Shown: piece after piece, positions 3,094-10,062 of the stretch
Position numbering within the stretch: position 1 is the first letter of the stretch
Layout of the letters: every line of letters begins with the position of its first letter
NCBI GenBank assembly: GCA_007122335.1
Contig: SKTZ01000087.1
Span: forward strand, 1-36,179
Source of the DNA: Bacillota bacterium
Lineage (GTDB): Bacteria > Bacillota > Halanaerobiia > B1SED10-174
DNA: 36,179 nucleotides
Direction: 5' to 3'
The notes under the pieces: generated by a model
What the model saw: the letters and a program-made list of their open reading frames with translations, nothing else
Told to the model about the DNA's origin: nothing
Database searches by the model: none
Made by a program: the position numbers and the translations under genes

Positions 3094-3151
3094 GTTGCCC
3101 CACCGCCCTTTCTTTTAATTAATGGTAAACTTCGGCATATTAAAGCTTTAT

Positions 3152-3185
3152 CCTTCCAGGGGCCTTTATTTTCTCCCCAGGAAGG
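3152..3185. promoter_or_regulatory. Imperfect hairpin in divergent intergenic region
   Basis: CCTTCC-A-GGGG (3152-3162) faces CCCC-A-GGAAGG (3175-3185). The stem has ten pairs with one A-A mismatch and a T-rich loop. It lies between the minus-strand kinase-like gene and the plus-strand DUF2087 gene. On the plus strand it is followed by TTAAAAGGTTTTTTAG, so it could act as a weak terminator or leader hairpin. Its function is not established. Confidence 0.35.
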
Positions 3186-3265
3186 TTAAAAGGTTTTTTA
3201 GTCAAAATAATAAACAGGTCCTTTTGCTGGGGAGCCGCCAGGAAGAAAGGGGAGAAATTGATAAA

Positions 3266-3544
3266 ATGAAAGAAATTCCGAAAGATATTAAGAATTTTTT
3301 TGATGAAGAAGGTCGCCTGGAAGTTTGGCCGGGGAAAAGGAAAAAACAGCTGTTGGCCCTGGAATTTATAGCAGGGCTTTTCCAGGTTGGCAGGGAATAT
3401 ACTGAAAAAGAAATTAATGAACTTCTGGAAAAAGTTCATACCTTCAATGATGCAGCCCTCTTACGACGGGAGTTATTTGAGCTGGGTTACCTGAACAGAA
3501 AAAAAGATGGTTCTTCTTACTGGAGAGACCGGGCGGAGGAATAA
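3266..3544 (+). CDS. DUF2087 domain protein (winged-helix-like)
   Basis: A 92-residue protein that matches DUF2087: the order KRKKQLLALEFIAGLF, then YTEKEINELL, then DAALLRRELFELGYLNR, then DGSSYWR is the family pattern. DUF2087 is a small winged-helix-like domain often found alone or fused to ArsR-type regulators, so a regulatory role is likely but unproven. The reading frame is open further upstream (to an ATG at 3122). The start at ATG 3266 is chosen because GGGGAG lies 11 bases before it and because the upstream extension crosses a hairpin and looks non-coding. The next gene begins two bases after the stop, so the gene heads an operon of acetyltransferases and methyltransferases. Confidence 0.75.
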   Translation: MKEIPKDIKNFFDEEGRLEVWPGKRKKQLLALEFIAGLFQVGREYTEKEINELLEKVHTFNDAALLRRELFELGYLNRKKDGSSYWRDRAEE

Positions 3545-6645: not shown

Positions 6646-7194
6646 ATGGAAATTTTAAATACAAGGCGTCTTTTTTTATTGCCGCTAAGGCCTTTAGAAT
6701 TACAGTTGCGTCTGTCTTCTCCGGAACAGCTGGAAAGGCTTTTAAATTTACGTTTCGCCCAGCTGGAAATGCCCGGGCCTCTCAAGGAAGCCTACCGGAA
6801 AAAAATCGCTTTAATTGATGAAACCGATGCAGACTATTTGCTATTGACCTACTGGCAATTTATTCTCAGGGAAGAAGGCTGGATAATAGGAGAAGCAGGA
6901 TTTAAAAATCTCCCCGATTGTAAGGGAGATATTGAAATTGGTTACGGAATTGTTCCTGATTTTCGGGGCAAAGGATACGCCCGAGAGGGAGTTGAGGTAC
7001 TAACTCGTTGGGCCCTGGGACGGGAGGATGTGCAGGGGATAATTGCCACAACCGCGAAGGGAAATATTCCCTCGCAAAAAGTTCTGGAATCCGGAGGTTG
7101 GGTTAAAACCGGTGCAGATAAAGAAAATATTTTCTGGCGCCTGAGCAAAAAAAACGGGAAAAAAATTAATACTAGCAGAATAAGGAGAGAATAA
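6646..7194 (+). CDS. GNAT N-acetyltransferase
   Basis: A 182-residue acetyltransferase. The N-terminal LNTRRLFLLPL strand, EEGWIIGEAGFKN, the IEIGYGIVPDFRGKGYAREGV acetyl-CoA binding loop (about residues 105-125) and AKGNIPSQKVLESGGWVKTG near the C-terminus are the standard GNAT A, B and C/D motif order. The ATG at 6646 is preceded by an immediate in-frame stop, and GGAG lies 11 bases upstream, so the start is fixed. The stop overlaps the ATG of the next methyltransferase by one base (TAATG), so the pair is translationally coupled. It is divergent from the oxidoreductase; the roughly 120-base gap must hold both promoters. The substrate is unknown. Confidence 0.85.
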   Translation: MEILNTRRLFLLPLRPLELQLRLSSPEQLERLLNLRFAQLEMPGPLKEAYRKKIALIDETDADYLLLTYWQFILREEGWIIGEAGFKNLPDCKGDIEIGYGIVPDFRGKGYAREGVEVLTRWALGREDVQGIIATTAKGNIPSQKVLESGGWVKTGADKENIFWRLSKKNGKKINTSRIRRE

Positions 7195-7859: not shown

Positions 7860-8140
7860 AGATGTCAGCAGGAGGAACTTCTGCTTACCTATTGATAATG
7901 GAAGCGAAAAAGGCCCTGGGGTCCATTATCCATATCGAGAACAAGGACTTCCTTGACCTGGTTAAAAAAGAGGAAAACCCTCTCGTGGTTTTTCACCACG
8001 GAGGGGTTTTAAGAAAGGTTTATTCTTATCTTTTTTCCTGGCAGGGCTATATCTTTGTAACAAAAAGCCAGAAGAAATTATCTCTGCCCGGGAAAACCCA
8101 GGTAATTAAAGCGAAAAAATTAGAATTGCCCAGTCTTTAG
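7856..8140 (+). CDS. Conserved-looking hypothetical protein, 94 residues
   Basis: I do not recognise a family with certainty. The protein has a short N-terminal helix (AYLLIMEAKKALG) and a central strand-rich part (LVVFHHGGVLRKVYSYLFSW, then GYIFVTKSQKKLSLP) that looks like a small beta domain. Basic residues are frequent. The ATG overlaps the methyltransferase stop (ATGA) after GAGAGGGGG, so it belongs to the same transcript. An ATG two codons later is an alternative. The last four bases overlap the stop of the convergent ABC-F gene. Confidence 0.6.
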   Translation: MKMSAGGTSAYLLIMEAKKALGSIIHIENKDFLDLVKKEENPLVVFHHGGVLRKVYSYLFSWQGYIFVTKSQKKLSLPGKTQVIKAKKLELPSL

Positions 8141-9822
8141 GGCCGGGGATTTTTCCCGGCTTTTATTTTTTTTCTGACCTGAACCAGCTTTTGAAATTCC
8201 TGGTCAAGTTCCTGGTATTCCAAAGAGTCGGGTTCGACCTGACCCAATTCCCCTAAAATCTTGCTGATTCTGGTTTCGATTACCATCAGGTCTTCTTCGG
8301 GCGGAGTGGAAGTCTGTTCTTCTTTAAGGGGTTTTTTAGTGATTTTTTGTTTTTCGATAAGTAGTTGCGTGGAACAAAGAGAATCAACCAGGTAGCGGTC
8401 GTGGCAAACCATAACCAGAGTTCCCCGGTAGCTTTTCAGGGCTCTTTCCAATCCTTCCCTTAAACTCAGGTCCAGATGAGTTGTTGGTTCGTCGAGAAGG
8501 AGTAGATCGGGTTCTTTTAATAGAAGATGGCAAAGTTGAAAACGTCTCCTTTCCCCATAACTCAAACTGCAGAGAGGGATATTGAGCAATTCCCTGCCGA
8601 ATCCCATTCGGGCCAGGAGGGTAATAAACCATTCTTTTTTCTCCCTCGCAAAACTAAAAAGAATTTCTGTGCCTGTTTCTCCGGGCAGAGGAAGTTTTTC
8701 TTCCTGGGGTAAAAAGCCGATATTGGCCGAAGGACTTAACCAGAAATTTCCCTGGTCCAAATTATCTTCCCCGGAAAAAATTCGAAGAAGAGTTGATTTC
8801 CCGCAGCCATTGGGGCCACGCAGGGCTGTTTTTTCTCCGCGCAAGAGGTAAAAAGAACTGGAACAAAATAAATCCCTTCCACTGTAACCTTTTTTGCCTT
8901 CCTGAATTTCCACGATTCGCCGCCCCCTTTTTTGGGGAGCAGCCAGGTCAATATTCAATTCCGGGTTTTTTCCCGGCCTGGGGGTTGAGGCCTGAGATAA
9001 TTTTTCCAGTCTTTTTATTTTGGACTGGGCCTGGCGTTCTTTTTTGGCGGCCCTGGCTCGAAAAAACTCTTTGCCACCTTTTTTGTTTTCTCTGGACTTT
9101 TCCCTAGATCTGTCATGGCCACTTTGAGCCCAATTTTTGGTCCGGGTTATTTCTGTTTTAAGTTTTTTTTGTTCCCGCCTTTCCTTTTCAAAGGCCCTTT
9201 TCTGGGTCTTTTTTTGGTGAGCTTTTTCTTCCCGGTAAAAACTGAAATTACCGGGGAAAATGGTTACTTTTCCGTCCTTCAATTCCAGGGTTTTTTCGCT
9301 GACCTGATCCAGGAAAAAACGGTCGTGAGAAATTACTAAAAGTGCTCCGGGGAAGTTTTTGAGCTGTTCAATAAGCCAGGTTATACCCTGTTCATCCAGG
9401 TGATTGGTCGGTTCATCCAGCACCAATAAATCAGGGTTTTTATTCCAGATTCGGGCCAGGGCCAGTTTGGTCCTTTCCCCTCCGCTGGCTTTTTCCCAGC
9501 GCTCTTCTTCCCAGAGGTAAACTTTTTCTAACCCCAGTTTTTTACTTGTAGCCAGAAAACTCCCTGGAAAATCCTCCCCAGAATTATTTTTTTCCCTGCC
9601 CTGGCGTAAATATCCAATTTTTAGATTTTTTTGATGAAAAACAAGCTGGCCATGGTCGGGGCTTTGTTCTCCAGCTATAATTTCGGCAAGGGTTGTCTTT
9701 CCCGAACCATTTTTCCCAATTAAACCTACCCGGTTTGCAGGACCCAGATCAAAACTTATTTCCTTTAAAACCGGTGTATTGTTGAAAGATTTTTTAAGTT
9801 TTTGACAGCTGAGTAAAAGCAT
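8137..9822 (-). CDS. ABC-F family ATPase (ribosome protection / translation factor type)
   Basis: A 561-residue protein with two ABC domains and no membrane segments, the hallmark of ABC-F. The first Walker A is GKNGSGKTT (36-44), the first signature is SGGERTK, and Walker B is LLVLDEPTNHLD. A very basic linker follows (about 205-275). The second domain has GPNGCGKST, LSYGERRRF and LLLLDEPTTHLD. The C-terminal 60 residues form a probable coiled coil. ABC-F proteins bind the ribosomal E-site and either relieve antibiotic stalling (Vga, Lsa, VmlR) or act in translation. Residues alone do not decide between these. The regulated leader upstream (9823-10062) favours an inducible resistance-type or stress role. 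ATG 9822 has GGAGG seven bases upstream. Confidence 0.92.
   Translation of the reverse strand: MLLLSCQKLKKSFNNTPVLKEISFDLGPANRVGLIGKNGSGKTTLAEIIAGEQSPDHGQLVFHQKNLKIGYLRQGREKNNSGEDFPGSFLATSKKLGLEKVYLWEEERWEKASGGERTKLALARIWNKNPDLLVLDEPTNHLDEQGITWLIEQLKNFPGALLVISHDRFFLDQVSEKTLELKDGKVTIFPGNFSFYREEKAHQKKTQKRAFEKERREQKKLKTEITRTKNWAQSGHDRSREKSRENKKGGKEFFRARAAKKERQAQSKIKRLEKLSQASTPRPGKNPELNIDLAAPQKRGRRIVEIQEGKKGYSGRDLFCSSSFYLLRGEKTALRGPNGCGKSTLLRIFSGEDNLDQGNFWLSPSANIGFLPQEEKLPLPGETGTEILFSFAREKKEWFITLLARMGFGRELLNIPLCSLSYGERRRFQLCHLLLKEPDLLLLDEPTTHLDLSLREGLERALKSYRGTLVMVCHDRYLVDSLCSTQLLIEKQKITKKPLKEEQTSTPPEEDLMVIETRISKILGELGQVEPDSLEYQELDQEFQKLVQVRKKIKAGKNPRP
8142..8173 (+). terminator. Strong terminator of the acetyltransferase/methyltransferase operon
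   Basis: GCCGGG and CCCGGC form a tight hairpin (8142-8160, with extra A-T/G-T pairs inside). It is followed by TTTTATTTTTTTT. It lies inside the 3' coding end of the convergent ABC-F gene, where the same bases encode the C-terminal AGKNPRP. Confidence 0.85.
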
Positions 9823-9840
9823 AAAACCACCTCCGAAAAT

Positions 9841-9874
9841 AAAAACTGCAGGGGAACAATGGGTTCCCCTGCAG
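9841..9874 (-). terminator. Distal leader terminator just upstream of the ABC-F ribosome binding site
   Basis: CTGCAGGGGAAC (9846-9857) and GTTCCCCTGCAG (9863-9874) form a perfect 12-bp stem with a five-base loop. On the minus strand it is followed by TTTTTATTTT and then the GGAGG of the ABC-F gene. A full-strength terminator placed before a start codon is an attenuator. Confidence 0.88.
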
Positions 9875-9920
9875 GCAAAAGCAAATTATGCAGGGCAAAA
9901 AACTATTATGTTCCGACCCG

Positions 9921-9956
9921 AAAAAGTACACACCAAAGAACTGAGCAAGGGTGTGT
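9921..9956 (-). terminator. Proximal leader hairpin with T-tract (second possible attenuator)
   Basis: ACACACC (9928-9934) pairs with GGTGTGT (9950-9956) across a 15-base loop, and on the minus strand the stem is followed by ACTTTTT. It lies between the leader peptide and the distal terminator. Outer segments (GGAAC with GTTCC, GGGTC with GACCC) can enclose it in a longer-range pairing with the leader peptide region. Confidence 0.6.
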
Positions 9957-9971
9957 CCTATTTAATTCCTT

Positions 9972-9995
9972 TTATTGGGTCAGGTTTCTGAACAT
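9972..9995 (-). CDS. Putative 7-residue leader peptide of the ABC-F gene
   Basis: ATG TTC AGA AAC CTG ACC CAA TAA encodes MFRNLTQ. A GGAGG (10010-10014) lies upstream, but the spacing (14 bases) is longer than ideal. It is the only start-stop unit between the promoter and the attenuators. Its last codons overlap GACCC, which can pair with GGGTC downstream. Ribosome position on this peptide could therefore control the fold, as in other ABC-F leaders. Confidence 0.5.
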   Translation of the reverse strand: MFRNLTQ

Positions 9996-10033
9996 TTTTT
10001 TATTTTTAACCTCCGGAACTTTTTTCTTAAAAC

Positions 10034-10062
10034 ATAATATCACAGGTCAGTGGGGGTGTCAA
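10034..10062 (-). promoter_or_regulatory. Promoter of the ABC-F leader transcript
   Basis: On the minus strand TTGACA (10062-10057) and TATTAT (10039-10034) are 17 bases apart, a near-perfect sigma-A promoter. Transcription would start near 10027, giving a 5' leader of about 205 bases before the ABC-F start codon. Confidence 0.85.

Follow-up and report, generated by a model that had tools for sequence, protein, structure and literature searches.

A probable ribosome-dependent attenuator upstream of a VmlR2-like ABC-F gene in a Halobacteroidaceae-related bacterium

The ABC-F gene and its surroundings

The window, by which we mean the whole 36,179-nucleotide stretch of DNA that was analyzed, carries on its minus strand a gene for an ABC-F protein with two ABC domains and the ABC-F linker. 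The protein passes the ribosome-protection-like ABC-F model NF000355, with 416.2 bits against a cutoff of 380, and falls below the cutoffs of the NCBIfam models for Vga (318.6 versus 725), Msr (291 versus 680), Sal (274 versus 725), Lsa (226 versus 750) and CplR (255 versus 780). Its best solved relative is the ribosome-bound VmlR2 (8buu; 401 bits, aligned over residues 6 to 555), followed by VmlR (6ha8; 310 bits). These matches bear out the suggestion of a first-pass annotation of this DNA that the gene is a candidate ribosome-protection gene. Judged by its sequence, it encodes a VmlR2-like ribosome-protection protein and is probably an antibiotic resistance gene of this Halobacteroidaceae-related bacterium.

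Several kilobases around the gene are collinear in the genus mate G004 (the same contig as L002) and partly so in a second genus mate, G002, so the ABC-F gene appears to be resident on the chromosome. Separately, about 190 bp of the window (6778-6970) are absent from G004/L002, at a GNAT acetyltransferase ORF (6646-7194); in L002 the matches on its two sides share 15 overlapping bases, which points to an indel or a short duplication.

Architecture of the leader

Upstream of the ABC-F gene lies a leader of about 205 nt whose parts are listed in Table 1. Transcription is expected to start near 10027, and between the promoter and the first full-length gene there is a strong intrinsic terminator (T2), with a 7-codon upstream ORF (uORF) as the only ORF. 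The downstream neighbor gene is convergent with the ABC-F gene and the nearest long upstream ORF is divergent, so T2 is not obviously needed for ending an upstream unit. At -60.3, the leader (206 nt as folded) has a more stable predicted fold than its dinucleotide shuffles, which score -47.3 (z = -2.84). The spacing between the uORF Shine-Dalgarno sequence and its start codon, 14 nt here and 14 to 15 nt across the leaders, is over the usual optimum.

Table 1. Features of the ABC-F locus, in order of transcription from the minus strand.
Feature	Position	Strand	Basis or remark
Sigma-A-type promoter, TTGACA-N17-TATTAT, TG before the -10	10034..10062	minus	11/12 consensus match
uORF Shine-Dalgarno, GGAGG	10010..10014	minus	sequence; 14 nt ahead of uORF ATG
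uORF ATGTTCAGAAACCTGACCCAATAA, encoding MFRNLTQ and stop, 7 codons	9972..9995	minus	same start, length and stop position in all three leaders
P1 outer helix, AUGUUC can pair with GAACAU	9995-9990 with 9913-9908	minus	93% of cells paired
P1 5' strand CUGACCC, uORF codons 5-7	9977..9983	minus	7-bp core fully (100%) paired in all three leaders
T1 hairpin ACACACC/GGUGUGU, enclosed by P1	9928..9956	minus	followed by UUUUU, 9925-9921
P1 3' strand GGGUCGGAACAU (DNA GGGTCGGAACAT)	9908..9919	minus	includes GGGTCGGAAC at 9919-9910
CCCUGCA, candidate antiterminator strand against T2 5' arm UGCAGGG (9873-9867)	9889..9895	minus	
T2 intrinsic terminator, perfect 12-bp stem, 5-nt loop	9846..9874	minus	U-tract 9845-9841
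ABC-F Shine-Dalgarno, GGAGG; start codon ATG	9834-9830; 9822	minus	sequence
ABC-F ATPase, 561 aa, VmlR2-like	8137..9822	minus	NCBIfam NF000355, closest solved structures

The first-pass annotation had described, in order, a near-perfect sigma-A promoter, a 7-codon ORF with a GGAGG, a hairpin followed by a T-tract and a perfect 12-bp terminator directly before the ABC-F ribosome binding site, and each of these is present where it was placed. Its reading of the layout as a double terminator did not hold up. T2 has an intrinsic-terminator score of +35.6, and T1 scores negative in the window (-30 to -70, varying with the stem boundaries) and in both orthologues, described below. T1 probably serves as a pause hairpin or spacer and is weak as a terminator.

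Conservation of the leader in genus mates

We found the ABC-F gene in two of four genus mates searched (82% and 67% protein identity), and both also keep the whole leader, including the Shine-Dalgarno sequence, uORF, P1, T1 stem and T2. TTGACA, TATTATG and the uORF GGAGG are unchanged in both. The orthologous uORFs encode MFRTLAH and MFRTLTR, with stop codons TAA, TAG and TAA across the three leaders. All sense-codon differences among the three are nonsynonymous, so at least part of the constraint acts on the RNA. Between the window and G002, the uORF is 83% identical, the P1 3' strand 82%, and the T1 stem and T2 86 to 88%; identity drops to 44% for the loop of T1 and to 43% for the spacer ahead of T2, and between orthologues loops and spacers go down to 43 to 47%. 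The segment GCCCTGCAT, which holds CCCUGCA, is 100% identical in G002 and matches at 8/9 positions in G004, next to a divergent spacer.

The paired elements are likewise kept. Across the three leaders, P1 consists of CUGACCC:GGGUCGG (7 to 9 bp) together with AUGUUC:GAACAU (5 to 6 bp), the T2 stem retains 11 to 12 bp in all three, and pair 5 of T1 is A-U, G-U or G-C. In the window itself P1 is only modestly unusual, since 105 of 3,000 shuffles of its 3' strand pair equally well, and its credibility comes from its conservation rather than from shuffle statistics. Pair counts within the three close leaders showed no excess over shuffles (n = 3); three sequences cannot beat shuffles, and wider relatives are required. 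An alternative fold enclosing the proximal hairpin had been proposed in the first-pass annotation, and the part in which uORF codons pair with GGGUCGG, namely P1, is conserved. The other part, a 5' GTTCC arm (10019-10015), finds its partner GGAAC in one of the folds predicted for the window leader, but neither orthologue has the same bases at the aligned positions, and we rejected it.

Codon 3 of the uORF, AGA, is invariant across the three leaders, as might be expected if the uORF sensed general translation stress or the shortage of a specific aminoacyl-tRNA and the ABC-F protein were a housekeeping translation factor. We consider this explanation unlikely: the uORF has no run of a single amino acid, the peptides differ in most relatives, and the protein scores above the cutoff of the ribosomal-protection ABC-F model, with VmlR2 and VmlR as its nearest solved relatives.

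Distribution of the leader sequence

The covariance model R1, which represents the uORF-P1-T1 portion of the window-type leader, gave significant matches in 59 genomes of the class only at the three ABC-F leaders, in the genomes bearing the gene, and in 399 genomes of the phylum only at the window. The remaining matches were at chance level, with a best non-self E value of 0.01, and we found no credible further copies in either set. No Rfam family, RF02452 included, matches the window at the gathering score, and a loose threshold yielded chance matches only. RF02452, filed in Rfam as the Bacillus sRNA ncr1575, does match three vmlR-type leaders with 101 to 160 bits (minus strand; L082 at 3147-3388, L089 at 3143-3341 and L091 at 3135-3321). 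Because it coincides with vmlR-type ABC-F leaders, RF02452 seems to describe an attenuator that acts in cis and not, or not only, an sRNA. In the collection of papers that we searched, we found none linking Halanaerobiia ABC-F genes with attenuation. We conclude that the window leader is one of the uORF attenuators already known as a class for ABC-F genes, as a member restricted to its genus; its sequence, its leader peptide and possibly its antiterminator wiring are new.

A wider family of ABC-F leaders

A protein search of several hundred genomes of the phylum returned about 50 ABC-F relatives with roughly 32 to 46% identity, most of which are preceded by a Shine-Dalgarno sequence and a uORF of 3 to 9 codons, and most have a terminator within the last 130 nt. 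Dozens of further ABC-F leaders across the phylum, including those of the vmlR type, combine a uORF, a P1 formed between codons of the uORF and a stretch located downstream of it, and a terminator.

A distant relative is L029, from the same class (43% protein identity), which we aligned by hand on the anchor UUUUUCGG...GAACA since MAFFT misplaced its leader. It has a 10-bp P1, UUCUUGACCG:CGGUUAAGAA, at the window's position and with equal spacing: P1 follows ACUUUUUCGG in both leaders, and in both the P1 3' strand measures 11 nt from GG to GAACA. In this hand alignment, P1 differs from that of the window by two double compensatory changes (C-G to A-U and G-C to U-A), and only 2 of 3,000 shuffles equal the L029 helix. 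In a group of 18 leaders with uORFs of the type MRKxILA and similar, 96% of P1 is paired and 11 cells show double changes; none of 500 shuffles reached these levels of cells paired and of covariation score. The alignment of homologues that the first-pass annotation had proposed as a check, with a lack of covariation or of leader-ORF conservation as grounds for dropping the idea, has thus yielded a conserved uORF and compensatory changes in P1. In vmlR-type leaders, F26/MRKxILA leaders and most MF (MFIxx) leaders, the P1 3' strand also pairs with the 5' arm or loop of the terminator, better than non-cognate or shuffled sequences do.

The survey brought up several observations in their own right. 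A conserved uORF, M[RI]I[NS]TLTIQ, marks a second ABC-F group of the same class (L033, L034, L036 and L038; about 35% identity); its ACUUUAACCA can be matched by base pairing to UGGUUAGAGUAU, which follows some dozens of nucleotides downstream. A U-tract terminator was not detected in three of these four leaders, so the group may act on translation. L030 (minus strand; uORF MKFLLI) has two successive terminator hairpins, each with a GGGUUUA able to pair with the same UAAACUC, which belongs to the P1 3' strand, making it an apparent tandem attenuator. In L032, which belongs to another ABC-F gene of the class, an 11-codon uORF (MRLWIELSAQI) lies about 237 nt ahead of the ABC-F start and begins with MRL, a motif of macrolide leader peptides. 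Finally, leader peptides across groups (the window, L025, L026, L029 and others) tend to end in or near a Leu with Thr, Ala, Asp or Asn right after it (NLTQ, TLAH, TLTR, ILDR, ILA, FLA, VLN); pairing within P1 or a preference in stalling may lie behind this.

Coupling of P1 to the terminator

An antiterminator of the vmlR type, formed by the P1 3' strand and the T2 5' arm, was rejected for the window group, where 209 of 300 shuffles were as good. Two other segments resemble the terminator. GGAACA, the end of the P1 3' strand, resembles the tip of the T2 5' arm and can pair with UGUUCC in T2, making it a candidate antiterminator strand as well; taken alone, this pairing was equaled by 1,489 of 5,000 shuffles, so that its support comes from the combination and from its position. 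CCCUGCA, situated 15 nt ahead of UGCAGGG, copies part of the T2 3' arm, and its pairing with UGCAGGG was equaled in 138 (window), 718 (G004) and 102 (G002) of 5,000 shuffles. CCCUGCA:UGCAGGG nests inside GGAACA:UGUUCC, and both form in the window leader when it is folded with T2 excluded and the uORF blocked. It is possible, though less likely than not, that the window group has a rewired antiterminator in which two upstream decoy copies of the arms of T2 (GGAAC and CCCUGCA) capture both arms simultaneously; if so, a nested decoy antiterminator could beat a 12-bp terminator kinetically.

Folding with and without an occupied uORF, another check raised in the first-pass annotation, gave a divided answer. 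Blocking the uORF reduced the lead of T2 over the best alternative fold by 2.4 kcal/mol in the window and 1.8 kcal/mol in G004, but raised it by 2.4 kcal/mol in G002, which is the wrong sign; in vmlR-type leaders the same block lowers the T2 advantage by 3.8 to 8.6 kcal/mol. Sequestration of the T2 5' arm changed by +0.7, -2.7 and +0.1 kcal/mol in the three window-group leaders, compared to +2.4 to +9.0 kcal/mol in vmlR leaders, and in folding with the uORF blocked before T2 completion we saw no consistent effect across the three. As T2 is still favored by about 10 kcal/mol, antitermination would need to be kinetic, and given the weak pairing between the P1 3' strand and the T2 5' arm, folding predicts only weakly how a stalled ribosome would lead to antitermination here. 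On these folding models, a link from ribosome to terminator in the window leader is no more than plausible.

The same folds bear on a leader wired the other way around, in which a ribosome on the uORF would free GGGUCGGAAC to fold onto GUUUUUUGCCC, hiding CCCUGCA and letting T2 form, while an empty uORF would allow P1 together with CCCUGCA on the T2 5' arm, giving readthrough and thus induction when uORF initiation fails. The GGG/GGAAC:GUUUU/CCC hairpin that this requires is predicted in all three leaders with the uORF blocked and T2 formed, and CCCUGCA:UGCAGGG coexists with P1 in the fold of the free window leader. In other leader groups, however, stalling mostly favors antitermination, and we know of no ABC-F attenuator in which an empty uORF gives readthrough, making such wiring distinctly unlikely. 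It is also quite improbable that the leader is simply leaky and constitutive, with T2 merely lowering expression and the uORF and P1 incidental, as the mild improbability of P1 by chance in the window and its weak predicted coupling to T2 might suggest, since the uORF frame, stop, Shine-Dalgarno sequence and noncoding P1 3' strand are conserved amid divergent spacers, and homologous leaders keep P1 with different sequences.

A model for regulation

Our preferred model, to which we assign a probability of roughly 0.8, is that the leader is a ribosome-dependent transcription attenuator of the VmlR2-like ABC-F gene. Without drug, the uORF would be free or quickly translated, and its codons would pair with the downstream GGGUCGG to form P1, which encloses T1 and would act as an anti-antiterminator; T2 could then form, and RNA polymerase would stop near 9841. 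A ribosome-targeting drug that held a ribosome on the 7-codon uORF would block P1, and the freed GGGUCGGAACA, aided by CCCUGCA, would keep the T2 arms apart through CCCUGCA:UGCAGGG within GGAACA:UGUUCC, so that polymerase would read through and the ribosome-protection factor would be produced. The promoter, uORF, P1, T2 and protein family in this model are based on sequence and comparison. By analogy with vmlR and cplR, we infer uORF translation, drug-dependent stalling, antiterminator pairing with the resulting antitermination, and drug induction, and we extend the same caution to the resistance function.

This locus adds a probably intrinsic resistance gene, with a probably drug-responsive leader, from an uncultured lineage. 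More broadly, the plan of an attenuator with its uORF inside P1 precedes VmlR2-like ABC-F genes in many of the phylum's families, although the leader peptides themselves differ considerably. MFRNLTQ, MRKxILA, MFIxxLx and MIN thus make up a natural peptide series in which to ask which drugs each uORF senses.

Comparison with known systems

Attenuation through an anti-antiterminator and an antiterminator has been demonstrated by experiment for vmlR of Bacillus subtilis (PMC9226507). Like the window leader, the vmlR leader is about 200 nt long and has a Shine-Dalgarno sequence and short uORF inside the anti-antiterminator stem, followed by a further hairpin and then an intrinsic terminator near the ABC-F gene. 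It differs in its uORF (MIN versus MFRNLTQ) and in matching RF02452. In addition, the P1 3' strand of vmlR-type leaders, AGGATTAG, pairs with the terminator 5' arm, which that of the window does not clearly do, and T2 of the window is far stronger. The vmlR-like, ribosome-mediated attenuation put forward in the first-pass annotation is supported as far as the uORF, Shine-Dalgarno sequence, P1 and T2 are concerned, all of which are conserved in a plan that recurs, but not for T1 as a terminator or for the GTTCC arm.

VmlR2 of Neobacillus vireti (8buu) is the closest solved relative of the protein, at 401 bits; its predicted uORF is MK[L/Q] (PMC10201436) rather than MFRNLTQ, and the window protein is known by sequence. 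For cplR of Clostridioides difficile, uORF-dependent attenuation acts on both transcription and translation (PMC10201436). The cplR leader shares with the window uORF-dependent control of an ABC-F gene and a terminator just ahead of it, but its uORF is MR[I/M] and its terminator stem hides the Shine-Dalgarno sequence of the gene, which in the window lies outside T2. Closer to hand, the F26 leaders (for example L062, L063 and L067) and MF leaders (for example L046 and L049) likewise have a Shine-Dalgarno sequence, a uORF of 5 to 8 codons in P1 and a terminator, and in the MF leaders the uORFs start with AUGUUC and the P1 3' strand ends in GAACA, as in the window. Unlike in the window leader, however, their P1 3' strand pairs strongly with the 5' arm or the loop of T2, and neither group matches the R1 covariance model.
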